Assembly: GCF_001557215.1 (NCBI RefSeq)
Contig: NZ_LSJM01000006.1
Location: forward strand, 1 to 33,973
Length of the DNA stretch: 33,973 nt
Direction of reading: 5' to 3'
DNA from: Sphingomonas sp. CCH9-E2
Lineage (GTDB): Bacteria > Pseudomonadota > Alphaproteobacteria > Sphingomonadales > Sphingomonadaceae
The translations under genes were made by a program, and so were the position numbers. The notes beneath the pieces are model-generated. The model was not told the DNA's origin. It made no database searches and saw nothing but the letters and a program-made list of their open reading frames with translations. Each line of letters opens with the position of its first letter. The stretch's first letter is position 1. This document shows, piece by piece, positions 1,944 to 18,939 of this stretch.

Positions 1944-2818
1944 GCGATATGCGCTCGGGCCAGGGGGTGGCCGGGGACGCGCGCCTCGAACGCGAACAGG
2001 TCGCCGGCATGCGGCTGGGCGGTGCGCTCCTCGGCGCTCAATCCCTTGGCGGCGGTGGTGACGTAGAGCGTCGTCAGCCCATCGCCTCCAAACGCCAGCT
2101 TGGTGACATTGGCGACCGGCAGTCGGACGAACTCGATCTCGCGCCCGGTCGGATCGAAGCGGCGCGCGCCGTGCCCGGCGAAGAAGCCGACCCAGATATT
2201 GCCCTCGGCATCGGTGATCGACCCGTCGGGATAGCCTTCATCGACGGTGAAGGTCAGGAAGGGTTGAACCGCGCTGAGCGACCCATCGTCATGCAGCGCA
2301 GCCTGCCAGATTCGCCGCCCGATCGTGTCGGTGAAATAGATGCGGTCGCCAGCGGGTGACACTGCGGGGCCGTTGGTGATGCTCACCGGGCCGGGGCCGA
2401 CCCGGTCGAGCTGTCCGGCATCGAGGCGGTAGAAATGTCCGGTCGCGGCACTCTCGGCATTGTCCATCGACCCGAACCACACGCGGCCCTGCGCGTCGGT
2501 GCAGGCGTCGTTGAGGCGGTTGCCCGGCAGATCCGGCTCGACCGTGCGCCAGAAGGTGAAGGCGCGCGTATCGGGGTCGATCCAGTGTAGCCCGCTCTGC
2601 AACCCGCACAGCAACCGGCCATTATCGGCGGGCAGCGCCCAGCCGATCTCGCCCGGCGCATCCGCGCTGGTCAGCGCACCCGAAGCGGGGTCGAAGCGGT
2701 GGAGCTTCTTCCCCTTGATATCGACGAACCACAGGCAGCCGCGCTGCGCATCCCACACCGGACCTTCGCCCAGCGTCGCGCCGAGGCGCGCGGCGACCCG
2801 CACTTCGCTTATCGCCAT
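1940..2818 (-). CDS. xylC: D-xylono-1,4-lactonase (SMP-30/gluconolactonase family)
   Basis: This 292-residue cytoplasmic beta-propeller is predicted to hydrolyse D-xylonolactone to D-xylonate, the second Weimberg step. The N-terminal LGEGPVWD segment, the RLNDACTDAQGRVWFGSMD stretch and the YPDGSITDAEGNIWVGFF stretch are the usual metal-binding blocks of SMP-30 lactonases. I chose ATG at 2818 (MAISEVRV), which overlaps the xylB stop by 10 bases; an in-frame TTG lies at 2833. The gene sits directly after xylB and overlaps the esterase start by four bases. Order and neighbours match Caulobacter xylC. A lactonase for another aldonolactone, such as L-arabinonolactone, cannot be excluded from sequence alone. 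Confidence 0.85.
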   Translation of the reverse strand: MAISEVRVAARLGATLGEGPVWDAQRGCLWFVDIKGKKLHRFDPASGALTSADAPGEIGWALPADNGRLLCGLQSGLHWIDPDTRAFTFWRTVEPDLPGNRLNDACTDAQGRVWFGSMDNAESAATGHFYRLDAGQLDRVGPGPVSITNGPAVSPAGDRIYFTDTIGRRIWQAALHDDGSLSAVQPFLTFTVDEGYPDGSITDAEGNIWVGFFAGHGARRFDPTGREIEFVRLPVANVTKLAFGGDGLTTLYVTTAAKGLSAEERTAQPHAGDLFAFEARVPGHPLARAHIA

Positions 2819-3567
2819 CCAGCATCCACCCAATAGTTATGCGCAGTGCACATGCGCGCGTCGTCGCTGGCGAGGAAGGTCGCCATCGCCGCGATGTCCG
2901 CCGGCTGGATCCGGCCCTTCAGCGCCTGCGCGGCGACGATCTCCGCCTCGCCCTCCGGCGTGTACCATTTCTCCTGCCGCGGCGTCTGGACGTTGCCGGG
3001 GACGATGGTGCAGGCGCGGATGCCATGCGGGCCGAGCTCGCGCGCAAGGCTGCGGGTCAGCCCCTCGATCGCGGCCTTGGCGGTCTGGTACAGCGTGAGG
3101 TCGGGCAGGCCGAGATGCCAGCTGATCGATCCGAAATTGATGATGACGCCGTGCCCGGCTTCCTTCATCCCCGGGATCACCGCCTGCGCCGCGAAGAACA
3201 GATGGCGCAGATTGACCGCCATCCGCTCGTCCCAATAGGCCGGCGTCACCTCCTCGATCCCGTGGCGGTCGTCGCTCGCGGCATTGTTGAGCAAGATGTC
3301 GACCGCGCCGCGCTCCGCGATGATCCCGCCGAGGCACGACTGCAGCGCTGCGACATCGGTCAGGTCGCAACGCGCGAAGTGCGGCGCGTGGATCGCGTCC
3401 GGGGTCAGCCGCGCGCTCAGCGCTTCGCCGGCCGCGGTCTGCACGTCGACAAAGGTGACCCGCGCGCCCTGCGCCACAAACGCCTCGACCAGGCCTTCGC
3501 CGATGCCGGACGCACCGCCGGTGATCAGGACATGTTTGTCACGCAGGCTGGGATAGATGGCGCGCAT
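2809..3567 (-). CDS. xylB: D-xylose 1-dehydrogenase (NAD+), SDR family
   Basis: This 252-residue short-chain dehydrogenase is predicted to oxidise D-xylose to D-xylonolactone with NAD+, the first Weimberg step. The Rossmann motif TGGASGIG is at residues 16-23, the NNAAS motif near 94-98, serines at 147 and 149, and the catalytic pair Tyr160-x3-Lys164. Several stretches, including AIYPSL near the N-terminus, GSISWHLGL, EKWYTPEGEA and the C-terminal DAGWR, look almost identical to my memory of Caulobacter XylB. I chose ATG at 3567 because the AIYPSL start is conserved; the frame stays open to 3597. It follows xylA by 33 bases. xylB here is the Caulobacter name and is not xylulokinase. Confidence 0.9.
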   Translation of the reverse strand: MRAIYPSLRDKHVLITGGASGIGEGLVEAFVAQGARVTFVDVQTAAGEALSARLTPDAIHAPHFARCDLTDVAALQSCLGGIIAERGAVDILLNNAASDDRHGIEEVTPAYWDERMAVNLRHLFFAAQAVIPGMKEAGHGVIINFGSISWHLGLPDLTLYQTAKAAIEGLTRSLARELGPHGIRACTIVPGNVQTPRQEKWYTPEGEAEIVAAQALKGRIQPADIAAMATFLASDDARMCTAHNYWVDAGWR

Positions 3568-3600
3568 CGTGGCCGCTCCGCTGGATTTCTGCAGCAACCC

Positions 3601-5034
3601 TCAATCCCCCGAATAGACCGTTTTGACGGTCGTATAGAATTCGACCGCAGCGAAACCCTGTTCGCGCGCGCCATAGCTCGACTTGCGGGTGCCGCCGAAC
3701 GGCACGTGATAATCGACGCCGGCGGTCGGCAGATTGACCATCACCATGCCGGCGCGGATCCGCTTGCGGAAATCGCGGGCATATTTGTGGCTGGTGGTGA
3801 CGACGCCCGACGACAGGCCGAACTCGCCCTGGTTGGCAATCTCCAGCGCATGCTCGTAATCCTTGGCGCGGACGGTAGAGACGACCGGGCCGAACACCTC
3901 CTCGCGGTTGATCGTCATGTCGGGATCGGTGTCGGCGATGAGCGTCGGCGCCATGAAATAGCCGGGCGTGTCGAGCTTGAGCGGGTCGGGTCCGCCGCTG
4001 GCAACGCGGCCGCCCTCTTCGATCGCCTTTCGGACATAGCGGAGATTCTGTTCGAACTGGCTTTCGCTCGATGCCGGGCCGACCTGGGTGTCGGCGGCGA
4101 GGGCGGGGCCGACCTTGAGCGCCTTGGCGCGCTCGGCGAGCGCGGCGACGAAGCGGTCGTGGATTGCGTCCTCGACGATTACCCGGCTCGATGCGGTGCA
4201 GCGCTGACCGGTCTGGAAGAAGCCGCCGTCCAGCGCGATTGCCACCGCCTTGTCGAGATCGGCGTCCGCCAGCACGACCAGCGGGTTCTTGCCGCCCATT
4301 TCGAGCTGCACCCGCGCCTGCCGCATCATCGCGGCCATGCCGACCTTCGCGCCGACGCCCTGCGATCCGGTAAAGCTGATCGCATCGACCTGCGGATGAT
4401 CGACGATCGCCTGGCCGACGCCGCCCTGGCCGAGCACCAGATTGAACACGCCGGCCGGCGCGCCGCATTCCTGAATGATGTCGGCCAATGCGCTCGCCAT
4501 CGCCGGGGTCACATTGGCAGGCTTCATCACCACGGTGTTGCCGAAGGCGAGTGCCGGGGCGGCCTTCCACGCCGGAATCGCGATCGGGAAGTTCCACGGC
4601 GTGATCAGCCCGACCACGCCCACCGCCTCGCGATAGGTCGCGACATCAAGGCCGGGGCGCGTCGATTCGAGCGTCAGGCCGTGGCGGCGCAGCGCCTCAC
4701 CGCCGAAATAGCGGAAAATCCGCGCGGCGCGCATCACTTCGCCCATGCCCTCGGCGCGGGTCTTGCCCTCTTCCCGCGCGAGCAGTTCGCCAAGCTCGGC
4801 GGCGCGCGCCATGATCGTCGCGCCGACCTTGTCGAGCAGATCGGCGCGCACTTCCGGCGACGCTGCGGCCCAGCCCGGCTGCGCGGCGCGGGCGGCCTGC
4901 ACCGCCTGATCTACCACCGCCGCATCGCCCGCAGCAAAGGTCGCGACCACCTCATCGGTGTTCGACGGGTTGCGGCTCTCCAGCGGGGTGTCGACCGCGA
5001 CGCGCTCGCCGTTGATCAGATGGGTCAGCTTCAT
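3601..5034 (-). CDS. xylA: 2,5-dioxovalerate (alpha-ketoglutarate semialdehyde) dehydrogenase
   Basis: This 477-residue aldehyde dehydrogenase is predicted to oxidise alpha-ketoglutarate semialdehyde to alpha-ketoglutarate, the last Weimberg step feeding the TCA cycle. Visible motifs are TPWNFP with Asn148, the substrate-activating Glu245 in LEMGGKN, and the nucleophile Cys279 in GQRCTASS. Length equals the Caulobacter XylA length of about 478. It lies 26 bases after xylX and 33 bases before xylB in the same operon, which supports the specific substrate assignment; ALDH sequence alone would not. The symbol follows Caulobacter xylXABCD and must not be confused with xylose isomerase, which is also called xylA. 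Confidence 0.85.
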
Positions 5035-5060
5035 GATGCAAAGGTCCTGCTAGTCAGAGT

Positions 5061-6200
5061 TCAGATCCGGTCGGCAAGTCCGCGACGCACCAGGTCACGA
5101 ACAAGAACACCGATTCCAATTTCCCATATGGGGGCATTTTTCGACGTCGTCACGGTATTTGCGAGCGTACCAAGTCGCGACGAAGCGATCGTCACGCGAT
5201 CGCCCACCTTATGGGTGAAACCGCCACCCGGCACGTCGCGATCCTGGGTCGGCGCAAACAGGGTGCCGAGGAACAGCACGAAGCCGTCGGGATAGTGATG
5301 TTCGCTCATCGCCTGGCGCGCGATTTCCAGCGGGTCGCGGCTGATCTCGCTCATCCGGCTTGCACCCTCCAGCCTGAAGCCGTCGGTGCCCTCGATCGTC
5401 AGCGCGACATCGGCGCTGCGCACATCGTCGATGGTGAAGCCGTCGTCGAACATGCGGATGAACGGGCCGAGCGCACAGGACGCGGTATTGTCTTTGGCCT
5501 TGCCCAGCAGCAGCGCCGAGCGCCCCTCGAAATCGCGCAGATTGACGTCGTTGCCCAGCATCGCGCCGACCGCCTCGCCCCGGCGCGACATGGCCAGCAC
5601 GATTTCGGGTTCGGGATTGTTCCATCTCGAATCCGACCGCACCCCGATCGGGGCTTCATGGCCAACCGCCGACAGCACCGGCGACTTGGTGAAGATTTCC
5701 GCATCCGGGCCGATCGCGACCTCCAGATATTGCGACCACATGCCATCCTCAATCAGCGCGGCCTTGAGCGCCGCCGCCTCGTCCGACCCGGGTACGACCG
5801 ACCGGATGCCTCCGCCGATCCGCTCCTCCAGCCGTCCGCGGATCGCTGCCGCCTGGCTGGCGTCGCCGCGCGCCCGTTCCTCGATCACGCGCTCGATGGC
5901 CGATACGGCAAAGGTCACGCCCGCAGCCTTGATGCACTGCAAGTCGATCGGCGCGAGCAATGCCGTGCCCTCGGGCAATTGCGGGTCGGTCGCGTCCAGG
6001 TCGGCGATCCGCCGTCCGAATTCCGGCGTGGTCAGGCCACGGTCGATCGCTCCGGCGACGGTCGCGGCATGCGGAGTCAGGTCGAACAACGCACCATCGG
6101 CGATCAGCACCGGCACGGGGCCATCGCCCAGATCGACCCGTCCGAGGAAGCGGCCGGTCCGCCAATCCTCCGGCAATATTCCAGCCAGTGCGACCGTCAT
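5061..6200 (-). CDS. xylX: 2-keto-3-deoxy-D-xylonate dehydratase (fumarylacetoacetate hydrolase family)
   Basis: This 379-residue protein is predicted to dehydrate 2-keto-3-deoxy-D-xylonate to alpha-ketoglutarate semialdehyde in the cytoplasm. The C-terminal two thirds have FAH-fold features such as NNPEPEIVLAMS, GNDVNLRDFEGRS and a GFTHKVGDRVTI segment near the end. It is the first gene of the minus-strand xyl operon, with a purine-rich ribosome-binding stretch just before the ATG at 6200 and a LacI-type operator 30 bases upstream. It corresponds in position and size to Caulobacter xylX. The upstream dehydratase acting on xylonate (XylD) is not in this window, so the pathway is incomplete here. 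Confidence 0.85.
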   Translation of the reverse strand: MTVALAGILPEDWRTGRFLGRVDLGDGPVPVLIADGALFDLTPHAATVAGAIDRGLTTPEFGRRIADLDATDPQLPEGTALLAPIDLQCIKAAGVTFAVSAIERVIEERARGDASQAAAIRGRLEERIGGGIRSVVPGSDEAAALKAALIEDGMWSQYLEVAIGPDAEIFTKSPVLSAVGHEAPIGVRSDSRWNNPEPEIVLAMSRRGEAVGAMLGNDVNLRDFEGRSALLLGKAKDNTASCALGPFIRMFDDGFTIDDVRSADVALTIEGTDGFRLEGASRMSEISRDPLEIARQAMSEHHYPDGFVLFLGTLFAPTQDRDVPGGGFTHKVGDRVTIASSRLGTLANTVTTSKNAPIWEIGIGVLVRDLVRRGLADRI

Positions 6201-6229: not shown

Positions 6230-6243
6230 TGATAGCGCTAACA
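6230..6243. promoter_or_regulatory. LacI-type operator (xylose box) in divergent xylX/GH43 promoter region
   Basis: The 14-mer TGATAGCGCTAACA is an inverted repeat centred on TAGCGCTA (6233-6240) with matching outer TG and CA. It lies between the divergent starts of xylX (6200) and the GH43 gene (6335). A partner site at 17500-17513 shares 12 consecutive bases on the opposite strand. From memory, the Caulobacter xylX promoter carries TGTTAGCGCTACCA, bound by the LacI-family repressor XylR. One site could control both directions. Confidence 0.8.
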
Positions 6244-6334: not shown

Positions 6335-7969
6335 ATGAAGGGTTTTGCGCCATTGCTGGCCATGTTGCTTGCTGCACCCGCTGTTGCGCAGCAGAGCACG
6401 GCGCGATTCGATTTCGTCAGCTACACGGCGGAGTCAGCGCTACCTGCGCTCCCCGCCGGGCAGTTTGCAAATCCGGTGCTCCCGGGCTTTCGGCCCGACC
6501 CGTCGATCGTGAAGGTGGGGCAGGATTTCTATCTCGTCACCTCGACCTTTGCCTGGTTCCCCGGCATCCCGGTTTACCACAGCCGCGATCTGGTGAACTG
6601 GCGCCAGATCGGCAATGCGATCGACCGGCCGGAGATGCTCGACTTCAGCGGGCTGGCGCTCGACCGGGGCGTGTTCGCGCCGACGATCGAATATCATGAC
6701 GGCACCTATTACATCCTCAACACCTGCGTCGGATGTCGCGACAATTTCATGCTGACCGCCAAGAACCCGGCGGGGCCGTGGAGCGGGCCGCACTGGCTCA
6801 GCTTTGGCGGGATCGATCCGTCGATCTATTTCGAGGACGGCCGCGCCTGGATCGTCAACAATGACGCGCCGCCGGGACCGCCCGAATATGACGGCCACCG
6901 CGCGCTGTGGATGCAGGAAATCGACCTTTCCACCTTCAAGATGAAGGGGCCGCGCCACCTGCTCGTCGACAAGGGTGTCGATCCGTCGACCAAGCCGATC
7001 TGGGCCGAGGGGCCGCATATCTACAAGGTCGATCGCTGGTATTATCTCCTGGCGGCCGAAGGCGGCACGGCAGACCAGCATTCGCAGACCATCTATCGCT
7101 CCCGCACCCTGACCGGCCCGTACACACCCGGCCCGGTTAACCCGATCCTGACGCAACGCGACCTGCCCGAGGACCGCCCGAACCCGGTCCAGGCGACCGG
7201 CCACGCCGATTTCGTGAAGCTCGACGATGGCAGCTGGTGGGCGGTGTTCCTCGCCACCCGCCCGTTCCGGGGACAGGAGACATTGCTCGGGCGCGAAACC
7301 TTCCTGCTGCCGGTGACGTGGAAGGATGGCTGGCCGCTGATCCTGCCCGCGCGCACCCCTCTGCCCGCCAGCGTCGCGCGTCCGAACCTGCCCGCCTCGC
7401 CCGGCGAAGCGCGCGACTGGCGCGAGGAGTTCGATACGCCCAAACTCGCGCAGGACTGGCTGATGCTGCGCACGCCCAAGGACGCGCCGTGGTGGCGGAT
7501 CGCCGACGGCGCGCTGACGCTCGACGCACGGCCGGTCGCGGCGGGCGCGCTCGCCCAGCCGAGCTACATCGGCAAGCGGATGCAGCACCGCAAGGCGAGC
7601 TGGACCACGCGCGTGACCTTCGACCCCAAGGACGAGGCGCAGCGGGCGGGGCTGCTCGCGGTCGCCAATGAACATCATCTGTTGTTCGCTGGGCTTGAAG
7701 GCGACAAGCTCGTCGTGCGGCGACGGATTAGCAAGGACGAGCCCGATAATGGCGTCGTGATCGCATCGGTTCCGCGCGAAAGCGCAACCCAGGTCGAGCT
7801 GAAACTGAGCTTCGATGCGGGCACCGCTCAGGCCGAATGGCGCCCGGTTGGGACAACTGCATGGCGCAGCATCGCCAAGGACGTGGACGTGTCGCGCCTC
7901 GCCACGATCCATGCCGGGCTGTTCATGGGCCTGGTCGTCGGCCCGCACGCAGCGTCGGGAACGCCATGA
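6335..7969 (+). CDS. secreted GH43-family beta-xylosidase/arabinofuranosidase
   Basis: This 544-residue glycosidase is predicted to release xylose or arabinose from xylan-derived oligosaccharides. A signal peptide covers residues 1-19 (cut near AVAQ). The five-bladed catalytic domain shows the base Asp55 in RPDPSI, the pKa-modulating Asp161 in GGIDPSIYF and the acid Glu225 in WAEGPHIYK. From about residue 360 a concanavalin-like beta-sandwich follows, as in two-domain GH43 enzymes. ATG at 6335 is preceded by a strong AGGAGAGGAG ribosome-binding site at 6321-6330 and gives a proper signal peptide; the frame stays open to 6254. The stop overlaps the next start in ATGA. Exact substrate is inferred from the xylose genes next door. 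Confidence 0.88.
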   Translation: MKGFAPLLAMLLAAPAVAQQSTARFDFVSYTAESALPALPAGQFANPVLPGFRPDPSIVKVGQDFYLVTSTFAWFPGIPVYHSRDLVNWRQIGNAIDRPEMLDFSGLALDRGVFAPTIEYHDGTYYILNTCVGCRDNFMLTAKNPAGPWSGPHWLSFGGIDPSIYFEDGRAWIVNNDAPPGPPEYDGHRALWMQEIDLSTFKMKGPRHLLVDKGVDPSTKPIWAEGPHIYKVDRWYYLLAAEGGTADQHSQTIYRSRTLTGPYTPGPVNPILTQRDLPEDRPNPVQATGHADFVKLDDGSWWAVFLATRPFRGQETLLGRETFLLPVTWKDGWPLILPARTPLPASVARPNLPASPGEARDWREEFDTPKLAQDWLMLRTPKDAPWWRIADGALTLDARPVAAGALAQPSYIGKRMQHRKASWTTRVTFDPKDEAQRAGLLAVANEHHLLFAGLEGDKLVVRRRISKDEPDNGVVIASVPRESATQVELKLSFDAGTAQAEWRPVGTTAWRSIAKDVDVSRLATIHAGLFMGLVVGPHAASGTP

Positions 7970-9471
7970 TCGACCCGGTGCGCGTCGTCATCGTCGGGGG
8001 CGGAACCGCGGGGTGGATGACCGCATCCGCACTCGCGCGCTTCCTGCCTGGTGTGGCCGACGTGCGCCTGATCGAATCCGAGGAAATCGGCATTGTCGGG
8101 GTGGGAGAGGCGACCCTCCCGCATCTGCGCGCCTTTCTCGAGCGGCTGGGCATTCCTGAAGCCGAGATGATGCGCGCGACAAGCGCGACCTACAAACTCG
8201 GCATCGATTTCCGCGATTTCGGCAGGATCGGGGATCGCTATATCCACCCCTTTGGGGCGTATGGCGTCGATATCGCCGGAGTCGGCTTCCACCATTACTG
8301 GCTGCGCGCCCGCGCCGAGGGGAGTGCCCGCGGAATCGAGGACTATTCGCTCCCCATCGTCGCCGCGCGTGCCAATCGCTTTGCGCTGCCCCCGGCCGAT
8401 GGCGACTTCCTGTCGACCAGCTATGGCTGGGCCTATCAGTTCGATGCCACCCGGCTCGCCCCGATGCTGCGCGGTTATTCGGAGGCGCGCGGCGTCACGC
8501 GGACCGAGGGGCGGGTCACCGGGGTCGAGCGCGACGGCGAGAGCGGTGATGTCACGCAGCTCGTGCTCGACAGTGGCGAGCGGGTGGCGGGCGATCTGTT
8601 CATCGACTGCTCGGGCTTTCGCGCGCTGCTGATCGGCGGCGCGATGGATGCGCCTTGGGAGGATTGGTCGCACTGGCTGCCCTGCGACCGCGCGGCGGCG
8701 CTGCCCGCGACATCGCCCGCCGGACCGATCGAACCCTATACCCGCGCCACCGCGATGACCGCCGGCTGGCGCTGGCGCATCCCGCTGCAGCATCGCGTCG
8801 GCAACGGCTATGTCTTCTCCAGCAGCTTCCTGTCGGAAGACGCGGCGTGCGATGCGATTCTCCGCGCGGTCGAGGGGACGCCGCTCGCCGAACCGCGCAT
8901 CCTGCGCTTCCGCGCCGGGCGGCGGCGCGAAAGCTGGGTCGGCAATGTGGTGAGCATCGGGCTGGCCAGCGGCTTCCTCGAACCGCTCGAATCGACCAGC
9001 ATCCATCTGGCGCAAATGGCGGTGATGCGGCTGATCGAACTGTTCCCCGAGCGTCAGATCGACCCCGCCGACCGCGCCGCGTTCAACGCGACGGTCGATT
9101 ATGAATATGACCGCGTCCGCGATTTCCTGATCCTCCATTATCACGCCACGACGCGCGATGATTCGGACTTCTGGAACCATGTCCGCACGATGGACCTGCC
9201 CGACACCCTCGCCGGCAAGCTCGAGCTGTGGCGTGAGGCAGGGCGAATCGAGAAATATGGCGAGGGCCTGTTCCTCGAACCCAGTTGGGTCGCCGTCTAT
9301 CTGGGACAGGGGATGGTGCCGCAGCGCCATGACCCGCGCGCCGACAACCCCGCACCCGCCGCGCTCGAGCGCGCGCTCGACGATATCGCCGACACGATCC
9401 GCAGCCGGGTTGCTGCGATGCCCGACCACGAAGCGGCACTGCGCGCACAAGGCGCATGGGGGGCGGCATGA
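7966..9471 (+). CDS. flavin-dependent tryptophan-halogenase-family protein
   Basis: This 501-residue protein belongs to the FAD/FADH2-dependent halogenase family. The dinucleotide motif GGGTAGW is at residues 11-17, the catalytic-lysine position is Lys77 in TYKLGIDF, and the halogenase signature appears as GWRWRIP. An EPLESTSIH block near the C-terminal third is also intact. The start overlaps the GH43 stop in ATGA. Family members near sugar-utilisation genes are known from comparative genomics of Proteobacteria, but I know of no defined sugar-related role. A true halogenase, a different flavin oxygenase or a modifier of a surface protein are all possible. The protein has no signal peptide and should be cytoplasmic. 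Confidence 0.85.
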   Translation: MIDPVRVVIVGGGTAGWMTASALARFLPGVADVRLIESEEIGIVGVGEATLPHLRAFLERLGIPEAEMMRATSATYKLGIDFRDFGRIGDRYIHPFGAYGVDIAGVGFHHYWLRARAEGSARGIEDYSLPIVAARANRFALPPADGDFLSTSYGWAYQFDATRLAPMLRGYSEARGVTRTEGRVTGVERDGESGDVTQLVLDSGERVAGDLFIDCSGFRALLIGGAMDAPWEDWSHWLPCDRAAALPATSPAGPIEPYTRATAMTAGWRWRIPLQHRVGNGYVFSSSFLSEDAACDAILRAVEGTPLAEPRILRFRAGRRRESWVGNVVSIGLASGFLEPLESTSIHLAQMAVMRLIELFPERQIDPADRAAFNATVDYEYDRVRDFLILHYHATTRDDSDFWNHVRTMDLPDTLAGKLELWREAGRIEKYGEGLFLEPSWVAVYLGQGMVPQRHDPRADNPAPAALERALDDIADTIRSRVAAMPDHEAALRAQGAWGAA

Positions 9472-10568
9472 GCGGCCCGGCCAGCATCGCGGTGCTGGGC
9501 AGCGGCGTGGTCGCGCTGTCCGCCGCCATCGCCTTTCGCCGCGCGCTGCCTGCTGCGCGGATCACTTTGGTGGAACGCCCGGCCGATCCCCGGTCGCTGC
9601 TCGACCGCATCGGCGCAGCGACGCTGGCGATCGATGCGTTTCACCGCGCGATCGGGCTGGACCAGCAACTGTTCATTCGCCGCACCGGTGCGGTTGCGAT
9701 CCATCGTGTCACGCTGAACGGCGAGCCGCTGGGCGGGCCGGGCGCGATCCCGCATATCGAGGGCGTTGCGCTGCATCAGCTATGGCTGCGGAGCCTGACG
9801 GAGCGGCCTGAGGCGACGCCCAGTTGGGCCGCGCTCACCGTGCCCGGGGCCGAGCCGTTCGGCGTGCGCTTCGACATGCCCGCTTACGCAGCGCTGCTTG
9901 CCGAAATGGCCGCGGCGCTGGGCGTCGCGGGGGGCACGGCGGACGATGCCGACCTGCTGCTCGACTGCACGGTGCCGGGAGACGACTGGCTCTGCGCCCC
10001 GCTGCCAAGCGTTGTCGCCGAGCCGGTCGCGCCCGGCGCCGCTGAAGGCGAAACGCTGGACATCGCCGACAGCGTGGTCGAGTGGCAGGCCCCGCCCTGG
10101 GGCTGGCGGCTCGCGGGAGGGGCCGGACTGATACCCGGTCGCCATTCCACGCCACGCTCCGGCCGGACCATTGCCCTTGGCGAAGCGGCGCTCGTCGCGG
10201 AGAGCTTCGACGGCCACGCGCTCTCCGCGGCGCATGCCGATATCCTGCGCGCGATCGAGTTCATGCCGCATGCCGAGCCGAGCGATCGGGAGGCCGCCGA
10301 GTATAATCGCCGCACCGCCATCGCGCACCAACGGGTGCTCGATTGGGCGACCGAGCGCTGGGGCGTCCCGGCGACCGCTGATCTCGCTGCCCTACGCGCC
10401 GGATTTGCCGCGCGCGGGCGCATTCCCTATCGCGACGGCGATCCCGTGACCCCAGGCGAATGGGTCGGCTGGTGGTTCGCGAACGGGGTTCGCCCCGCGC
10501 GCATCGACCCCACCGCCCGCGCCGTCCCGCAAGACCAACTGATCCGCATGATGGAGAGGAATAGATGA
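9468..10568 (+). CDS. degenerate halogenase paralogue, probable non-catalytic
   Basis: This 366-residue protein aligns by eye along its length with the preceding halogenase but is about 135 residues shorter. Its N-terminal GSGVVAL (residues 11-17) replaces GGGTAGW, the lysine position holds Ile78 in RRTGAVAIHR, and the WxWxIP signature has become WGWRLAG. Other blocks are still recognisable, such as FDMPAYAALLAEM, DLLLDC and the C-terminal EWVGWWFANGVRP matching the SWVAVYLGQGMVP block. It is bounded by ATGA overlaps on both sides, so it is kept in step with its neighbours. The frame is clean, which argues for a retained pseudoenzyme rather than a decaying gene. ATG at 9468 was chosen over 9456 for the overlap. 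Confidence 0.75.
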   Translation: MSGPASIAVLGSGVVALSAAIAFRRALPAARITLVERPADPRSLLDRIGAATLAIDAFHRAIGLDQQLFIRRTGAVAIHRVTLNGEPLGGPGAIPHIEGVALHQLWLRSLTERPEATPSWAALTVPGAEPFGVRFDMPAYAALLAEMAAALGVAGGTADDADLLLDCTVPGDDWLCAPLPSVVAEPVAPGAAEGETLDIADSVVEWQAPPWGWRLAGGAGLIPGRHSTPRSGRTIALGEAALVAESFDGHALSAAHADILRAIEFMPHAEPSDREAAEYNRRTAIAHQRVLDWATERWGVPATADLAALRAGFAARGRIPYRDGDPVTPGEWVGWWFANGVRPARIDPTARAVPQDQLIRMMERNR

Positions 10569-13024
10569 AGCGTTTGATGCTCCTGGCGCTCGGCGCTGCC
10601 GTGGCCGCACCGCTGGCGGCGCAGGAAAGCACGGTCCATCCCGAGATCTGGCCGAGCCCGGCCTGGCCGCAGCAAACGGACAACGCTGTCGAAGCGAAGA
10701 TCAAGGCGCTGATCGCGCAGATGAGCGTCGAGGAGAAGGTCGGCCAGATCGTTCAGGCCGACATCGCCAGCGTGACCCCGGCGGACGTGCGCACCTATCA
10801 TCTCGGCTCGGTCCTCAATGGTGGCAGCAGTGGTCCCTATGGCGACGATTTCGCAGCAGCGCCGAAGTGGCTGCAGCTGGCCGACGCGTTTTACGAGGCT
10901 TCGGTCGACAAGAGTGGCGGGCGCGTCGGCATTCCGATCATCTGGGGCACCGACGCGGTGCATGGTCACAGCAACATCATCGGCGCGACGCTGTTCCCGC
11001 ACAATATCGGCCTCGGCGCGATGCGCGATCCCGACCTGATCGAGAAGATCGCCCAGGCCACTGCGCTCGAAATCCGTGCGACCGGGCAGGAATGGACCTT
11101 CGCCCCCACCGTCACCGTCCCGCGCGATTTTCGCTGGGGCCGCGCCTATGAAGGCTATTCGTCCGACCCCAAGCTGGTGGCCTCCTATGTCGAGCGGATG
11201 GTGCGCGGGCTGCAGGGGCCGGGCAGCGGCACCAACCTCCTCGCCGGGCCCTATGTTCTCGCCTCGACCAAGCATTTCCTCGCCGATGGCGGGACGCATG
11301 AGGGGCGCGATCAGGGCGATGCGCGGATCAGCGAGACCGAACTGCGCGACATTCACGGTGCCCCCTATGTCCCCGCGATCGAGCAGGGCGTGGCGACGGT
11401 GATGGTCAGCTTCTCAAGCTGGAACGGCACCAAGATGACCGGGCACAAGGGAATGCTGACCGATGTGCTCAAGAACCGGATGAACTTCGGCGGCTTCCTC
11501 GTCTCCGACTGGAACGCGCACGGCCAGGTCGAAGGCTGCACCAACGCCTCCTGCCCGAAGGCGGTCAATGCCGGGCTCGACATGTACATGGCGCCCGACA
11601 GCTGGAAGCCGCTGTGGCATTCGCTGGTCGCGCAGGTGAAGTCGGGCGAGGTGCCGATGGCGCGGCTCGACGATGCGGTCGCGCGCATCCTGCGGGTCAA
11701 GATGCGGCTTGGGCTGTTCGAGGCGGGCAAGCCCTCGACGCGCAAATATTCGGGCGACTGGTCGCTGCTTGGCCATGCCGATCACCGCGCGGTGGCGCGC
11801 GACGCGGTGCGCAAGTCGCTGGTGCTGCTCAAGAACAATGGTTCGCTGCTGCCGGTGAAGGCGGGCGCGCATGTGCTGGTGGCGGGCGACGCGGCGGACG
11901 ATATCGGGCGTCAGTCGGGCGGCTGGACGCTGACCTGGCAGGGCACGGGGGTCAAGAACGATCAGTTCCCCGGCGCGACCTCAATCTGGAAGGGGCTGCA
12001 CGACGCAGTGACATCGACTGGCGGCAGCGCCGAGCTGGTTGCGGACGGCACGTTCGCGAAGAAGCCCGACGTCGCGATCGTCGTATTCGGCGAAACGCCC
12101 TATGCCGAATTCCAGGGTGACCTGAAAACGCTGCAGCTCCGCCCCGAATTGCGCAAGCCCTATGAGACGATGAAGAAGCTCAAGGCGCAGGGAATTCCGG
12201 TCGTCGCGGTGATGGTCACCGGCCGACCGCTGTTCATGAACCCGGAGCTCAACGTCGCCGACGCGTTCGTTGTCGCGTGGCTGCCGGGGTCCGAAGGGGC
12301 GGGAATCGCCGACCTGCTGGTTCAGCGCAAGGACCGCCGTGCCCCCTATGACTTCACCGGCAAGCTGCCCGTTGCCTGGCCCGCCACCGCGCGCGCAGAC
12401 GGCCCGACGCTCTTCCCGTTTGGCTATGGCCTGACGCTGGCGGGCGGGGCCGCGCCGTGGAAGCCGCTGTCGGAGGATAGCGAGGTTCCGGCGGAAGACG
12501 CGGGCAATGTCTATTTCGCTGGCGGCGTGCCGGCGGCGTCCTGGTCGCTGCAGGTCTATGGCGATCCGGCGGACTCGACGCGCATCACGACGGTCCCGGC
12601 AGCGGCGGCGAGCGGGCGCGTGCGGGTGACTGCGGTCGATCATGTCGTGCAGGAAGGCGCACGGCGTTTCGCGATCGACTCCGGCAGCGCCGCGGTCGGC
12701 CTGACCACCTATGCGCCGCTCGACCTGACGCGCGAGACCAATGGCGATGTCATGCTGGTCGCCACGCTGCGCGTCGATGCCAAGCCGGCGGGTGCGGTCA
12801 GTTTCCGCATGGGCAATGCCGCCGTCCGCGCAACTGCAGTCGAGGGTGCGAAGCCCGGCGACTGGGTCAGCTATGGCGTGCCGCTCAAGTGCTTTGCGAA
12901 GGGCGGCGCGAATCTCGGCCGTGTCGAGGCACCGTTCATGCTGCGCAGCGAAGGCGCGTTCACGTTCAGCCTGTCGCGGGTTGCACTGGGAACGGCGGCG
13001 GACCGCGTAGTCGCGTGTCCGTGA
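10565..13024 (+). CDS. secreted GH3 beta-glucosidase / 1,4-beta-glucan exohydrolase
   Basis: This 819-residue enzyme is predicted to hydrolyse beta-linked gluco- or xylo-oligosaccharides in the periplasm. A signal peptide covers residues 1-19. The GH3 barrel carries Lys236-His237 in the KHF motif and the nucleophile Asp315 in VSDWNAHG. The second GH3 domain ends around LFPFGYG, and a C-terminal domain of about 180 residues resembles the galactose-binding-like module of ExoP-type GH3 enzymes. The start overlaps the previous stop in ATGA. The stop is one base from the stop of the convergent halogenase gene, with no terminator visible. The ExoP-like architecture fits beta-1,3/1,4-glucan or cello-oligosaccharide substrates better than xylose oligomers. 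Confidence 0.92.
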   Translation: MKRLMLLALGAAVAAPLAAQESTVHPEIWPSPAWPQQTDNAVEAKIKALIAQMSVEEKVGQIVQADIASVTPADVRTYHLGSVLNGGSSGPYGDDFAAAPKWLQLADAFYEASVDKSGGRVGIPIIWGTDAVHGHSNIIGATLFPHNIGLGAMRDPDLIEKIAQATALEIRATGQEWTFAPTVTVPRDFRWGRAYEGYSSDPKLVASYVERMVRGLQGPGSGTNLLAGPYVLASTKHFLADGGTHEGRDQGDARISETELRDIHGAPYVPAIEQGVATVMVSFSSWNGTKMTGHKGMLTDVLKNRMNFGGFLVSDWNAHGQVEGCTNASCPKAVNAGLDMYMAPDSWKPLWHSLVAQVKSGEVPMARLDDAVARILRVKMRLGLFEAGKPSTRKYSGDWSLLGHADHRAVARDAVRKSLVLLKNNGSLLPVKAGAHVLVAGDAADDIGRQSGGWTLTWQGTGVKNDQFPGATSIWKGLHDAVTSTGGSAELVADGTFAKKPDVAIVVFGETPYAEFQGDLKTLQLRPELRKPYETMKKLKAQGIPVVAVMVTGRPLFMNPELNVADAFVVAWLPGSEGAGIADLLVQRKDRRAPYDFTGKLPVAWPATARADGPTLFPFGYGLTLAGGAAPWKPLSEDSEVPAEDAGNVYFAGGVPAASWSLQVYGDPADSTRITTVPAAAASGRVRVTAVDHVVQEGARRFAIDSGSAAVGLTTYAPLDLTRETNGDVMLVATLRVDAKPAGAVSFRMGNAAVRATAVEGAKPGDWVSYGVPLKCFAKGGANLGRVEAPFMLRSEGAFTFSLSRVALGTAADRVVACP

Positions 13025-13025
13025 C

Positions 13026-14513
13026 CTAGCCGACCATCGCCGCGATCTGGTCGGCATGGCCGGGGAGCTTCCCCGCCACATCGGCATAGGTCGCGGCGAT
13101 CTGGCGCATCGCGGCGGTTACGCGTGCATCGTCCATCGAATCCACTAGCGGGTCATAGCCGTCGGGGATGATATGCTGGCCCAGCAGCACCGCGACCCAG
13201 CTCGGCACGCCGAACAGGTCATGGTCGTACCGCCGGATTCGCCCGCGCTCGCGCCACAGTTCCAGCTTGGCGGCGAGGCTGTCCGGCACCGTCATCGCGC
13301 CGACGTGACGCCACAGTTCGCTGTCGCGCCGCTGCGTCGCCTTGTAATGCAGTACGATGAAATCGCGCACATATTCATAGGCCTCGTGCATCAGCCGGTT
13401 ATATTCGTTGCGCCCCGCCGCGCTCATGCTGCGGTCGGGGAACAGCCACATCAGCTTTGAGATGCCGGTCTGGATCAGGTGAATGCTGGTCGATTCGAGC
13501 GGCTCGACAAAGCCGGCTGACAGGCCCAGCGCGACGACATTGCCGACCCATTGCTGCTCCCGCACCCCGGCGGTGAAGGACAAAGCGCGCGGCTCGGCGG
13601 TTGCGGGCGCGTCGAGGTTCGCCAGCAGCGTCTCGCGCGCGCGCTCCTCGCTGCCGAACGCACTCGCATAGACGATGCCGTTGCCGGTGCGATGCTGCAG
13701 CGGGATGCGCCACTGCCAACCGAATTCATGCGCGGTGGAGCGCGTCAGCGGGGTCAGCGGATCGACGCGCGCGCACGGAACCGCAATCGCGCGATCACAT
13801 GGCAGCCAGTGCGACCAGTCGTGATAACCGACCCCCAGCGCGTCGCCGAGCAACAGGCTGCGAAACCCCGAACAGTCGATGAAGAAATCACCCGCGATGC
13901 GGCGCCCGTCGTCGAGCAGCACGGCGGCGACATGGCCGGTCGCGGGATCGCGTTCGACCGATGCGATCTTGCCCTCGACCCGCGCTACGCCCCCGGCTTC
14001 GGCGCGACGGCGCAGAAATGCTGCATAAAGGCCCGCATCGAAATGATAGGCATAGGCCATTCCGCCCAGCGGTGAGCGCGGGTCTGCGGCAGGATGGGCA
14101 AAGCGGTCGCGCCGCGCCGCCTGCGCAGCGATCCAATACTCCTCCAGCGCGCCGATGCGGTGCTTCAGCCAATATTGGTGGAACGCGACGCCCTGGAAAT
14201 CATGCCCCAGTTCGCCGAACGGATGCAGATAGCGGTCGCCGACCTGCCCCCAGTTGACGAATTCGATGCCCAGCTTGATCGTCGCGCCCGTCTCGCGGAC
14301 GAAGTCGGGCTCGTCGATGCCCAGCCGGTGGTTGAATTCGCGGATCGGCGGGATCGTCGCCTCACCGACTCCGACCGTGCCGATCGCGTCGGATTCGACC
14401 AATGTGATCGTCCGCTGACCATCGCTCAGGAAGCGCGCGGCGGCGGCTGCCGCCATCCACCCGGCGGTGCCGCCGCCGATGATGACGATGCTGGAGACGG
14501 GCGGTGCGGTCAT
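13026..14513 (-). CDS. flavin-dependent tryptophan-halogenase-family protein, second full-length copy
   Basis: This 495-residue protein has a complete halogenase motif set: GGGTAGW at residues 13-19, the lysine at Lys80 in GATIKLGIEF, and GWQWRIP. It shares the VGVGEAT, DCSGFR, HDWSHWLPCDRA-type and FVEPLESTSIHL blocks with the copy at 7966-9471, so the two are paralogues of the same subfamily. It is the last gene of the operon beginning with the GH5 enzyme; its ATG overlaps the epimerase stop in ATGA. Function in a polysaccharide locus is unknown. No signal peptide is visible. Confidence 0.87.
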   Translation of the reverse strand: MTAPPVSSIVIIGGGTAGWMAAAAAARFLSDGQRTITLVESDAIGTVGVGEATIPPIREFNHRLGIDEPDFVRETGATIKLGIEFVNWGQVGDRYLHPFGELGHDFQGVAFHQYWLKHRIGALEEYWIAAQAARRDRFAHPAADPRSPLGGMAYAYHFDAGLYAAFLRRRAEAGGVARVEGKIASVERDPATGHVAAVLLDDGRRIAGDFFIDCSGFRSLLLGDALGVGYHDWSHWLPCDRAIAVPCARVDPLTPLTRSTAHEFGWQWRIPLQHRTGNGIVYASAFGSEERARETLLANLDAPATAEPRALSFTAGVREQQWVGNVVALGLSAGFVEPLESTSIHLIQTGISKLMWLFPDRSMSAAGRNEYNRLMHEAYEYVRDFIVLHYKATQRRDSELWRHVGAMTVPDSLAAKLELWRERGRIRRYDHDLFGVPSWVAVLLGQHIIPDGYDPLVDSMDDARVTAAMRQIAATYADVAGKLPGHADQIAAMVG

Positions 14514-15253
14514 GCCCCCACGCTAACAGCTTGCGCGATCAGCCGCAGCGTCGCGCGATGGGTCGCGCCCGGCGCAACGACGACACTGAGCGCATTGGGC
14601 AGATGCGCCACCGGCTCGAAACAGAAATGCGGCGCGCCGGCCGGGGTATAGACCACCGCATGATCGACTTCGGATTCGATCCGCAGCGCGGCGTCCGGCC
14701 AGCTGATCGACGCGACCCCATCCCATCCGGAAAAGGCGCAATCAAGCGCGCGTTCGGCGACCGCGAAATCGACCTTGCGATCGGCAATCTCGACCGGTTC
14801 GCTTGGCAGCATCCGTGCATCGGGCGGCCAGCGCCGCTCTGCCGCAAAGTGCAATCGTGCGCCCGCTGCGGGAAAATAGGGGTGATGCCCACAGGCGAGC
14901 GGCGCGTCGAATGCCTCCAGATTGCGTGCGGTCAGCGTCACCGTCAGCGTATCGGCGGTCAGCTCGACCTGCTGCTCGGCCGCAAAGGCAAAGGGCCAGC
15001 GCGCATCGCCGTGATGGTCGAGCACCAGCACGGCGCGATCATCGCGCGCCTCCTGCACCGTCCAATCCGACGTCCAGCCAATGCCATGGATCGCGTGCGG
15101 TTCGGGCGCGAAATTCGGCGCAATCGCATGGGTCTCCCCCGCCCAGTCGAACCGCGCATCGGCGATGCGGTTGGAAAAGGGTACCAGCGGGAAGCTCGCC
15201 ATCCCCAGCGGATCGCCCGCGGCAATCGCCTCCGCCGATGCTGTGCGCAGCAT
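14510..15253 (-). CDS. aldose 1-epimerase family protein (start uncertain, probably longer)
   Basis: The gene is predicted to interconvert alpha and beta anomers of an aldose so that freed sugars can enter catabolism. The first canonical start, ATG at 15253, gives 247 residues and cuts off a conserved part of the fold. In the same frame upstream the reading LTAGAARAAVAPALGGALTSW looks like a normal epimerase N-terminus. No ATG, GTG or TTG exists in that frame as far up as the stop near 15530. A CTG at 15340 would overlap the preceding stop by four bases and give about 276 residues. Visible family features are FPLVPFSNRIADARF, the His in HAIHGIGW, and ACGHHPYFPAAG. Confidence 0.8.
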   Translation of the reverse strand: MLRTASAEAIAAGDPLGMASFPLVPFSNRIADARFDWAGETHAIAPNFAPEPHAIHGIGWTSDWTVQEARDDRAVLVLDHHGDARWPFAFAAEQQVELTADTLTVTLTARNLEAFDAPLACGHHPYFPAAGARLHFAAERRWPPDARMLPSEPVEIADRKVDFAVAERALDCAFSGWDGVASISWPDAALRIESEVDHAVVYTPAGAPHFCFEPVAHLPNALSVVVAPGATHRATLRLIAQAVSVGA

Positions 15254-15336: not shown

Positions 15337-16464
15337 TCAGTTGCTCGACGATGTCAGCACCGCTTCTTCGCGAATGACATAGACCGGGCCGATCTCAAGC
15401 TCCTGCCGGGCTGCCCCGGTGTGCAGCGCCAGCTGGCCCGCGCCCTTGGCGATGTCCATCGGGGCCTGGGTGCGGAACTGGTAGAGCCGCCAGTTCGGCC
15501 CGACCTGAACCGCTTTGTCGAGGAAGCCGTCATAGGGCGCGGCGTTTTTCTGGACGCGCACCGACAGCATCCCCTGGCCATCCGGCGTCGCCGCCGAGAG
15601 CGCGCGCGCGAGCACCGCGACCAGCAGCACGTCGCCCTCCTTGATCTCCTCGTCCAGCGCCACGCTCGCGCCCGAGGCATAGGGCGCGGCTCCGGCATTG
15701 GCGACGCTGAACAGCGTACCGACGCGGCCATAGACATTGGTCACCGTCGCCTTGGTCGTCTGCCCCGCACCGTGGAACCCCCAGTCGCGGTTCGCCGGAT
15801 CGTTGAGCATCCGGCCCTTGTCCTTGAGCTGCGGCGGCAGCTCGGGATCGGGCGCGGCGGCGCTCTCGACGCGCTTCGTCGTGCGGATGCTCGTCGCACC
15901 CTCGACCACGATCACCTGGCCGATCTCGATCACCTGCTTGGCCCCGGCGAGCTGTAGGCCGACAACGGCCTGCCCGGTCGGCAGCGCCTTGTCCGATCGC
16001 GCGGTGACTTCGTACAGCGCCCATTCGCTGCCGATATCCAGCACCGTGTCGCCAAAACCCGCATAGGGCGCGGCATTCTGCTGAAAGCGCACGCCGATCT
16101 TGCCCTTGCCGCCCGGGGCCTCGGACTTCACCGTCCGGGCATAAAAGGCGACGGTGACGTCGCGTCCGACCGCGATCCCGCGGCGGATCGGGACGTTTGC
16201 GCCGCTGTCATAGATGTTGGCACCGGCGCGCGGCACTTCGACCCGCACCGCGGCACCGCCGCCCGGGATCGAGGGGTCCTGCACATTCTTGGTCTTCTGC
16301 TCGGCGCCGTAGAAGCTCCAGTCGAGCCGCGACGGATCGTTGATCAGCGTGCCGGGCAGCGCATCGTCGAGCGCTTGTAGCTCGGCAGTCGGCTGGTCCT
16401 GTGCCACCACGGCGGCGGGAACGAGCACGGCAAGTGCAGCCGCTACGATCAGACCCCGCTTCAT
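15337..16464 (-). CDS. secreted protein of two tandem carbohydrate-binding-like domains
   Basis: I do not recognise this 375-residue protein as a named family. A signal peptide covers residues 1-21 (cut at VVA-Q). The rest is an internal duplication: repeat 1 spans about 39-188 and repeat 2 about 218-366. Shared blocks include LINDPSRLDWSFYGA against MLNDPANRDWGFHGA, VRFQQNAAPYAGF against VRVQKNAAPYDGF, and IEIGQVIVVEG against LEIGPVYVIRE. The beta-rich pattern with conserved aromatics resembles jelly-roll carbohydrate-binding modules. The ATG at 16464 overlaps the GH5 stop in ATGA, so a role in binding the GH5 substrate or product is inferred. ATG at 16464 was chosen for the signal peptide; the frame opens earlier at 16557. 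Confidence 0.75.
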   Translation of the reverse strand: MKRGLIVAAALAVLVPAAVVAQDQPTAELQALDDALPGTLINDPSRLDWSFYGAEQKTKNVQDPSIPGGGAAVRVEVPRAGANIYDSGANVPIRRGIAVGRDVTVAFYARTVKSEAPGGKGKIGVRFQQNAAPYAGFGDTVLDIGSEWALYEVTARSDKALPTGQAVVGLQLAGAKQVIEIGQVIVVEGATSIRTTKRVESAAAPDPELPPQLKDKGRMLNDPANRDWGFHGAGQTTKATVTNVYGRVGTLFSVANAGAAPYASGASVALDEEIKEGDVLLVAVLARALSAATPDGQGMLSVRVQKNAAPYDGFLDKAVQVGPNWRLYQFRTQAPMDIAKGAGQLALHTGAARQELEIGPVYVIREEAVLTSSSN

Positions 16465-17450
16465 TCCGGCAGCCCCATCGCGCCGCGCAGACCGGGAAGC
16501 CATTGCTTCTTCTCCTTGTCGTAAAATGGGAAGGTGTTGCTGTACGCCCAGCTGCACATGCCGATGTCCAGCGGGCCGAACGCGGCGGTGACCGCGCGGT
16601 GATAGGCGACGCGCTGCTCCAGGCTGGTCGTCGTGTGCGCGCCCGACTCCCCCATGAACGGCGTCTTGCCGGTGCGCGCGATATAGGCGCGGATCTTTTC
16701 GACATCGCGCTTCAGGCGCAGCACATCCTCGGCCGTTCCATAGGTGCGACCCAGCGGCGGGGCCGGGTTGACCCAGGTCGCGCCCTGATGGGTGAAGTCG
16801 AACGGCTCGTAATAGTGAAAGGTCGGAACGACATGGGGATCGTCGGGCAGCGGCAGCGTCGCCAGGCTATCGATCCCGCTCCAGAATTCGCCGCCGATGA
16901 TCACCGGCCGGTCCGGGTTGGTCGCGCGGATCGCCTTCAGCGCCGGGGTGATGACCGCGATCAGATTCTTGTTGTCGAACTTGTCGTGCGGCTCATTCTC
17001 GATTTCGAACCACACATGGTCGCGCGGCATGTCGGCAAAGCGCGCCGCGATCTGCCGCCACATCGCCGCCAGCTGCGGTGCGCTGCCCAGCGGATCCTTG
17101 TGAATCGCCTCGAAATGGTGGCTGTTGAGGATGACGTTGAGCCCGGCCGCGCGCGCCTGTTCGACGGCGGTGCGGATGCGCTTCATATAGGCGTCGTCGA
17201 TCTTGAAGTCCGGTCCCGGCCCGGCATGGGTGTCCCAGCGGACGGGCAGGCGCACGGTCTTGAACCCGGCCTTGGCGATGATCGCCATATCGTCATCGGC
17301 GAGCGGTTTGCCGCCCCAGGCGGACTCGGCCGGCGGCTCGAAGGTGTTGCCGATGTTGATGCAGATGCCGACTGGCAATTTGTCGGTGCGCGCGGGCGCG
17401 GCCTGCGGCGCGGCGGACAACAGGGCGGCAATCGCCAGCGGACCGATCAT
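16461..17450 (-). CDS. secreted GH5 endoglucanase-type glycosidase
   Basis: This 329-residue enzyme is a retaining (beta/alpha)8-barrel glycosidase, predicted to cleave beta-1,4-glucan, xyloglucan or a related hemicellulose backbone. The first 17-20 residues look like a signal peptide. The acid/base is Glu153 in EIENEP, the nucleophile Glu268 in FMGESGAH, and the conserved His pair HH111-112 follows VILNS. It heads the minus-strand operon of binding protein, epimerase and halogenase. A LacI-type operator lies 50 bases upstream of its ATG. The subfamily and real substrate cannot be settled by eye. Confidence 0.88.
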   Translation of the reverse strand: MIGPLAIAALLSAAPQAAPARTDKLPVGICINIGNTFEPPAESAWGGKPLADDDMAIIAKAGFKTVRLPVRWDTHAGPGPDFKIDDAYMKRIRTAVEQARAAGLNVILNSHHFEAIHKDPLGSAPQLAAMWRQIAARFADMPRDHVWFEIENEPHDKFDNKNLIAVITPALKAIRATNPDRPVIIGGEFWSGIDSLATLPLPDDPHVVPTFHYYEPFDFTHQGATWVNPAPPLGRTYGTAEDVLRLKRDVEKIRAYIARTGKTPFMGESGAHTTTSLEQRVAYHRAVTAAFGPLDIGMCSWAYSNTFPFYDKEKKQWLPGLRGAMGLPE

Positions 17451-17499: not shown

Positions 17500-17513
17500 T
17501 GGTAGCGCTATCA
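17500..17513. promoter_or_regulatory. LacI-type operator upstream of GH5 operon
   Basis: Read on the minus strand this is TGATAGCGCTACCA, an inverted repeat around TAGCGCTA (17503-17510). It is 50 bases before the GH5 start. TTGATAGCGCTA is shared exactly with 6229-6240. It differs at one position from the Caulobacter xylX operator as I recall it (TGTTAGCGCTACCA). The position near the promoter suits a repressor. Confidence 0.8.
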
Positions 17514-18720: not shown

Positions 18721-18939
18721 CGCGTTCCCTCCCGGTCTGTTCTCTTGTGCGATATGGTCGGCATCCGAACCCCAATAGGCAACCGAATTTGTCGGCCCAT
18801 GATCGACAAAAAAATCGGCCATGGATGCCGAACTGTCGAAATGCGTCTCGCTCGATGCACATGGGGTTGAGCGGCAAGCGCCGCTTGTCCATCGACACCG
18901 GGTCGCTGGGCGTACATCCTTGGACGGAAGGTGACCGAC

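Follow-up and report, generated by a model that had tools for sequence, protein, structure and literature searches.

Two flavin-dependent halogenases and a pseudo-halogenase in a xylan/xylose locus of Sphingomonas sp. CCH9-E2: parts of a candidate three-protein module

We will start with the sugar locus of Sphingomonas sp. CCH9-E2 (assembly GCF_001557215.1) found in contig NZ_LSJM01000006.1, positions 1 to 33,973. This whole stretch of 33,973 nucleotides will be called the window. It has two genes for intact flavin-dependent halogenases (FDHs), here FDH1 and FDH2, which, judging from their sequences, are paralogues of two different types within a single xylan/xylose locus. Between them lies HalC, a third member of the family which has lost its catalytic residues. 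The position of all genes is given in Table 1. A previous sequence-only reading of this DNA had described two intact halogenases in different operons, each joined to its upstream neighbour by an ATGA overlap, and this is indeed the case: FDH1 overlaps the stop codon of GH43 and FDH2 that of the aldose epimerase. HalC in turn overlaps FDH1, and its alternative start at 9468 would give one more ATGA overlap. The neighbours which that reading named (GH43, GH3, GH5 and aldose epimerase) have the corresponding Pfam matches. The name of its "binding protein" is unproven: neither this protein, scanned from a longer start, nor its relative of 375 amino acids in locus L001 matches any Pfam or NCBIfam model. 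The two intact genes had been taken as the unit and HalC, a PF04820 member without the motifs, had been missed; the unit which recurs has three genes.

Table 1. Genes and operator-like sites of the locus, with positions in the window
Feature	Position	Strand	Remarks
Sugar operon: SASA esterase, SGL lactonase, SDR dehydrogenase, aldehyde dehydrogenase, FAH-family protein	60..6200	-	Pfam matches
LacI-type operator-like palindrome TGATAGCGCTAACA	6230..6243		Between the - sugar operon and the + GH43-FDH1-HalC-GH3 operon
GH43, beta-xylosidase-like	6335..7969	+	PF04616, PF17851; first gene of the + operon; longer open reading frame (ORF) from 6254
FDH1 (HalU), intact BrvH-like FDH	7966..9471	+	501 amino acids; K77, E342, GWRWRIP
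HalC, pseudo-halogenase	9456..10568	+	370 amino acids; 366 if the start is the ATG at 9468
GH3 glycosidase, ExoP-type C-terminal domain	10565..13024	+	PF00933, PF01915, PF18559; last gene of the + operon
FDH2 (HalD), intact BrvH-like FDH	13026..14513	-	495 amino acids; K80, E340, GWQWRIP
Aldose 1-epimerase	14510..15253	-	PF01263; ATGA-coupled to FDH2; true start possibly upstream
Protein with signal-like N-terminus (judged by eye)	15337..16464	-	"Binding protein" of the sequence-only reading
GH5 glycosidase	16461..17450	-	PF00150; first gene of the - operon
LacI-type operator-like palindrome TGGTAGCGCTATCA	17500..17513		Upstream of the - GH5...FDH2 operon

Both FDHs are full members of PF04820. 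FDH1, scanned from an earlier in-frame ATG at 7837, scores 616.6 bits over profile positions 1–455 of 458, and FDH2 621.6 bits over 2–458 of 458; the cut-off is 21. All the halogenase motifs which we checked are kept in the two proteins: the GxGxxG motif for flavin adenine dinucleotide (FAD), the catalytic Lys, Glu-Ser and WxWxIP. FDHs of the BrvH/Xcc4156 type are their best match both in sequence and in predicted fold. Scores against BrvH, Xcc4156 and 9luq are 466–492 bits, compared with about 236–299 for PrnA/RebH and 308 for SttH, and identities are 45–48% to BrvH-like enzymes and 35–36% to the tryptophan halogenases PrnA, RebH, PyrH and SttH. Tryptophan halogenases of the PrnA/RebH type are not their nearest solved structures. 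A phylogeny against PrnA/RebH-type enzymes had been proposed as a check; by the scores just given both proteins are much closer to BrvH, Xcc4156 and 9luq, and no clustering with ordinary biosynthetic halogenases was found. No signal peptide is visible by eye in the FDHs, which look cytoplasmic.

We have compared the window with other loci, 102 in all: the window itself, L001, L002 and L062–L161 without L070, which is a duplicate of L001. The first ones were chosen for matches to P0003 or for FDH matches in genomes G001–G003, and 80 were hand-picked from the highest-scoring matches listed in a genus search; 15 of these 80 carry a protein of the HalC type (type C). Genes were called with a script of our own, which calls no FDH in L196 although the profile search lists matches there. 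The loci contain 181 FDH-like proteins longer than 340 amino acids; those of 340 or less were left out of the tree. Sorted by their motifs with our own rules, they are 135 intact proteins of types A/B, 13 intact proteins of the GVGEG type (type D) and 33 of type C. Three of the latter were excluded both from the tree and when counting C: L062_18 (an FDH1 truncated at the edge of its region), L073_9 (interrupted frames) and L130_10 (an FDH apparently without its N-terminus). This leaves 178 sequences in the tree and 30 C proteins, among which L073 and L148 are not included. Upstream and downstream roles were assigned by position and then checked by the tree.

The arrangement of these genes is very regular. 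Every one of the 30 C proteins has an intact FDH before it on its own strand, in 29 cases immediately before; for the thirtieth (L062) the upstream FDH runs across the region edge and continues in L063. The spacing between the two genes is -4 in 17 of the 29 cases, a longer overlap in seven and +1 to +41 in five. A further FDH-like gene is found in the same fetched region for 25 of the 30, directly downstream in 18 of them (truncated in L130). The tree separates the two partners. An upstream clade of 30 sequences (support 0.997) contains all 29 upstream FDHs and one from L148, where it is followed by a C-like fragment. A downstream clade of 28 sequences (support 0.972–0.974) holds 14 of the 18 downstream FDHs together with FDH2 and its seven orthologues, which stand apart from C although they are inside the clade. 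BrvH, Xcc4156 and 9luq fall in neither. It follows from this placement that FDH1, HalC and FDH2 match the three parts of tight operons found elsewhere. Upstream and downstream FDHs differ consistently at eight conserved columns, including 54, 56 and 113 in or beside conserved motifs. As for the C proteins, 25 form one clade (0.991) in a first tree, with five weakly placed; in a second tree they form a single clade, which was used as the root.

The set also appears in eight of 12 further loci, mostly picked for clustered matches (11 from family genomes outside the genus search, and L203 from a class search). In all eight the C protein has no catalytic Lys, and in L200–L202 the set is split on two strands, as it is in the window. 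Six more C-like proteins without the Lys (L179, L181, L183, L191, L224 and L225), some very divergent, also stand behind an intact FDH. C is present in at least 14 of the 26 genus genomes drawn. A C profile, which also scores intact FDHs, was run on 199 family and 299 phylum genomes, with 5–8 candidates scored per genome in a first look; among the matches listed, the motif-checked C proteins are all from genomes sampled in the genus or the family of G003, a close relative of the window. In four phylum genomes (L233–L236) we found lower-scoring FDH pairs, formed by one A/B type and one GVGEG type, with the Lys kept in both members. PF04820 itself is a multi-copy family in the genus, with up to 21 matches per genome and at least one in 24 of 26 genomes, one gene being able to give more than one match. 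Among the class genomes 50 of 142 have a match, 40 of them over the cut-off.

HalC has a PF04820 match of 46.3 bits (cut-off 21) and keeps the predicted FDH fold, but in the window it has neither the catalytic Lys nor Glu-Ser nor WxWxIP. The loss is general: Lys80 is found in none of the 30 C proteins and in at least 93% of the 135 A/B FDHs. In the other catalytic columns the C proteins keep Glu340 in 17%, Ser341 in 3% and G48–E51 in 0–3%. Positions retained in at least 70% of them include Gly13 (97%), Gly15 (93%), Asp213, Gly330, Pro359, Asn372 and Trp439, among others. The catalytic Lys is present in one of 66 database matches of HalC, with a gap in one more; public sources nevertheless call some of these proteins "tryptophan halogenase" or "tryptophan 7-halogenase" despite its absence. 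At column 330 we find GDAA in 16 of the 30, a sequence which resembles the GD motif of flavin hydroxylases; HalC of the window has GEAA. Flavin binding by C proteins is thus possible, as far as their sequence indicates. The ratio of non-synonymous to synonymous substitution rates (dN/dS) is 0.155–0.301 for C, compared with 0.060–0.154 for the orthologues of FDH1 and FDH2. Since these values are well under 1, the sequences indicate that HalC is under purifying selection. C proteins have 366–502 amino acids (337 in the most divergent one), and most of the closer database matches have 365–396. In L073 (genome G221) the frames of FDH1 and HalC look interrupted, while L148 (genome G292) has a C-like fragment; either assembly error or real decay may be the cause in these two cases. 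No pseudo-halogenase was found described in the open-access literature which we searched.

Many of these FDHs are accompanied by TonB receptors. A receptor of one family is found within three genes for 73 of 114 FDH groups, according to a receptor model built from the same set, and of ten more large proteins which we scanned in the vicinity of other FDHs or modules, seven are receptors as well. TIGR01782 is matched by four receptors linked to FDHs and by four without any FDH nearby, so that this family is not a mark of FDH linkage. In the window the receptor model has no match among the genes called, and Pfam detects no receptor in the subset of ORFs scanned. Three close relatives (L063/L064, L069 and L071) have a receptor next to another FDH, at a distance of about 19 kb from FDH1. 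Where the FDH nearest to a receptor is an upstream partner, 18 of 19 receptors have an insertion of about 10 residues in the plug (RF...DPDHFSVEGSG), compared with 10 of 39 other FDH-linked receptors. This insertion has conserved Phe and His and no Trp. A group of 27 insertion-bearing receptors forms one clade (0.996), which includes the receptor found 19 kb from FDH1 (L064, L069, L071); shared ancestry, rather than modification, may explain the insertion. A Trp in the C-terminal barrel is found in 100% of module-linked receptors and in 44% of other FDH-linked ones. Proteins of 672–686 amino acids stand between a gene of TonB-receptor size and an FDH, or beside both, in L085, L088 and L092; these three were scanned and have no Pfam match. 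Similar sizes occur in L116, L139 and L152. In the open-access literature searched, we found no description of FDHs in TonB-receptor sugar loci.

The sugars served by these loci are variable. The genes of the first operon in Table 1 taken together resemble, as we interpret them, an oxidative xylose pathway. In G003 the same locus contains a LacI regulator, a xylonate-dehydratase-like ILVD_EDD protein and GH67 (all three in L063), with a GH10-family protein and further proteins of the GH3 cluster, and we take the window locus with this continuation to be a glucuronoxylan locus with an oxidative xylose pathway. When the 30 module loci are compared with the other 72 FDH loci, counting related loci as independent (also in the Fisher values), the module has SapC in 0 (versus 15), DUF6445 in 1 (19), GH13 in 0 (15) and LacI in 2 (34), with GH9 in 7 (0) and GH10 in 4 (3). 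There is no clear difference in GH43 (9 versus 12) nor in Cupin_8 (12 versus 16). One module locus has a GH20 protein and another one an alpha-galactosidase with a CE2-type esterase. Over all the loci, sugars range over xylan, starch-type, hexosaminide and galactoside. Plant-wall phenolics, which the sequence-only reading had suggested as substrate, are not supported as a general one, because FDHs are also found in GH13 loci (15 of 72) and in module loci with GH20 or with alpha-galactosidase and CE2-type esterase. Since the sugars differ, what these loci have in common seems to be the uptake system, and not any single phenolic. Neighbours scanned comprise glycosidases, receptors, regulators, transporters, sugar enzymes, signalling proteins, Cupin_8, SapC and DUF6445, each cluster being named after a single representative; they offer no sign of a biosynthetic-halogenase setting, in scans which included no search aimed at biosynthetic clusters.

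The two palindromes of Table 1 are exact matches to one pattern, placed before the operons which carry FDH1-HalC and FDH2; judged by sequence, both operons have an operator-like site of a putative LacI-type xylose regulon. Two or more matches with at most one mismatch appeared in 0 of 100 shuffles, with a pattern which is post hoc, as it was written after seeing one site. A stricter LacI consensus gives three matches with at most three mismatches, a number reached in 9 of 100 shuffles. Regulation through these palindromes would concern the window locus alone, given the few LacI genes in other module loci. Upstream of the GH5 operon, at 17557–18720 on the reverse strand, there is an FMN-dependent hydroxy-acid dehydrogenase (PF01070). 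A separate small unit adjoins the locus at 18931–20537, with a small protein, presumably YCII-like, followed by a sigma factor with DUF6596.

We favour the interpretation that FDH1, HalC and FDH2 are one recurring module, formed by an upstream FDH, a pseudo-halogenase and a downstream FDH, which is co-inherited with one TIGR01782-type branch of TonB receptors in sugar loci of Sphingomonadaceae and would act as a peptide-modifying heteromeric halogenase. We give it a probability of about 40%. The three-protein set can be read in the sequences, from its gene arrangement, its partner clades, the loss of catalytic residues under purifying selection in HalC, its association with receptors and the palindromes at both promoters of the window; from there we infer a heteromeric enzyme acting on peptides. 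By analogy with their relatives, FDH1 and FDH2 would use FADH2, O2 and a halide, probably bromide as in the precedents of BrvH and Xcc4156, in order to form hypohalite, which Lys77 and Lys80 would deliver to an electron-rich aromatic group. A closed Trp pocket would be too small for the substrate, most probably a peptide or a protein which is produced together with the uptake system. HalC, presumably unable to halogenate, might be a non-catalytic subunit which docks the substrate or pairs with both enzymes, while FDH1 and FDH2, given their eight different columns, could work on two sites or carry out two steps. In the window, expression would follow the sugar through a LacI-type regulator. The fully specified version, a heteromeric protein- or peptide-modifying halogenase in which two active FDHs, different at conserved columns, need an obligatory pseudo-halogenase subunit and serve one branch of TonB-dependent glycan receptors, appears doubtful to us. 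If two FDHs and a pseudo-FDH are indeed the functional unit in this lineage, linked to a single receptor branch, the substrate may be missed when the enzymes are tested alone; receptor branch, pseudoenzyme and sugar locus would then be experimental handles on orphan halogenases.

Several observations weigh against this interpretation. Halogenation, substrate, FAD binding and complex formation are all predictions. Five of the 30 C loci have no further FDH in the fetched region (L067, L078, L079, L080 and L145), four of the 18 downstream FDHs fall outside the downstream clade (L068, L105, L110 and L130), and in the window FDH2 is on the opposite strand to FDH1-HalC. HalC of the window type is rare: strong matches (E value 1e-47 or better) are found in six of 295 genus genomes. 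One of these six, L073, has a broken C, and in L148 it is fragmentary. The association with receptors comes mostly from one clade and therefore represents few independent events. LacI control does not extend to the module in general, because a LacI gene is present in two of 30 module loci and in 34 of the other 72. We also considered mirror-trees as proof of a complex, in 24 loci with all three proteins (19 after removal of near-identical C, 16 with a receptor). Correlations among the three are 0.66–0.86 and do not show contact, because they overlap those with the merely linked receptor (0.70–0.82). A conserved receptor Trp was tried as the target, the sequence-only reading having proposed an aromatic residue linked to the surface machinery; among 58 FDH-linked receptors there is no column where Trp reaches 80%. 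These are the 59 with an immediately adjacent FDH, less one below 500 bits, and they were compared with five unlinked receptors of the same family, a control too small to be strong (three low scorers of eight were dropped, and most unlinked receptors fetched belong to other families). Conserved Tyr/Phe columns are common to linked and unlinked receptors.

FDH1 and FDH2 could also be halogenases of small molecules, with HalC as an accessory or regulatory protein; no peptide target was found among the receptors. They would act on free indole-like or phenolic compounds, for instance aromatics set free from plant polysaccharide, and serve in signalling, detoxification or competition. BrvH does brominate free indole, according to PMC5945002, but at a very low rate, and its authors doubt that indole is the natural substrate. 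The plant-wall hydrolases of several module loci (GH43, GH9 and GH10, with the counts given above) would agree with such a role; related FDHs in GH13 loci, and the GH20 and alpha-galactosidase module loci, would not, and no recurring biosynthetic or export partner appears among the ten neighbour families tallied. On balance we find it rather unlikely. The module could instead modify the TonB receptor to which it is linked, for instance within the module-specific insertion of the plug; this would agree with the unequal distribution of the insertion and of the barrel Trp. But the insertion has no Trp, 27 of its bearers are a single clade which may simply share it by descent, and FDHs which look cytoplasmic would have to act before export; we judge this explanation improbable.

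Another alternative is that the clade does not halogenate and carries out hydroxylation or oxidation, or uses hypohalous acid (HOX) or H2O2 as oxidant, HalC being a flavin-binding partner which passes FADH2 or oxidises alone. GDAA in 16 of 30 C proteins and the well-kept Gly13 and Gly15 point in this direction, as does the pairing of FDHs in other loci with SapC, DUF6445 and Cupin_8 proteins, the last of which include hydroxylases. It is quite unlikely, given that FDH1 and FDH2 keep the halogenase motifs, Lys included, and that HalC of the window has GEAA instead of GDAA. Finally, HalC might be a decaying paralogue from a tandem duplication, with FDH1 and FDH2 as ordinary FDHs which share the locus by chance. 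It evolves about twice as fast as its neighbours, its length is variable, and C looks interrupted in L073 and is fragmentary in L148. However a dN/dS well under 1, the size of most closer database matches (365–396 amino acids), the constant position of C behind an intact FDH, the single clade of upstream FDHs and the presence of C in at least 14 of 26 genus genomes make this very improbable.

The three-part module may finally be compared with known systems, citing the two original papers from their accessible sections. Of the solved structures, BrvH of Brevundimonas (PDB 6frl) is one of the two or three closest to FDH1 and FDH2, with all motifs in common. Its gene has another FDH gene upstream, and no pseudo-halogenase is described with it in those sections (PMC5945002). 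In our tree it lies in a different clade from the module FDHs (eight sequences with BrvH, 0.998), where its nearest relatives are FDHs from pairs without C. Those of L089 and L115 come from tandem FDH pairs placed between a LacI gene and a TonB receptor. The Trp-site lid of RebH is absent from BrvH (PMC5945002), and in this region FDH1 and FDH2 follow BrvH by our reading. The substrate site is open in BrvH and in Xcc4156, neither of which accepts free Trp; the assays in those sections were done on single enzymes, and the natural substrate of BrvH-like halogenases was left open (PMC5945002, PMC7336383). Xcc4156 of Xanthomonas campestris (PDB 6y1w) has the same open site (PMC7336383) and belongs to the same family branch as FDH1 and FDH2, but it groups with stand-alone FDHs in a clade of 17 sequences (0.999), outside the module clades. 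The tryptophan halogenase of Pseudoalteromonas L11 (PDB 9luq, released 2026) is found in that same clade. A parallel in setting is given by the FDHs which stand beside SapC, Cupin_8, DUF6445 and TonB receptors in sugar loci: they are present in the same genomes as the module, and the receptors of both kinds match TIGR01782.

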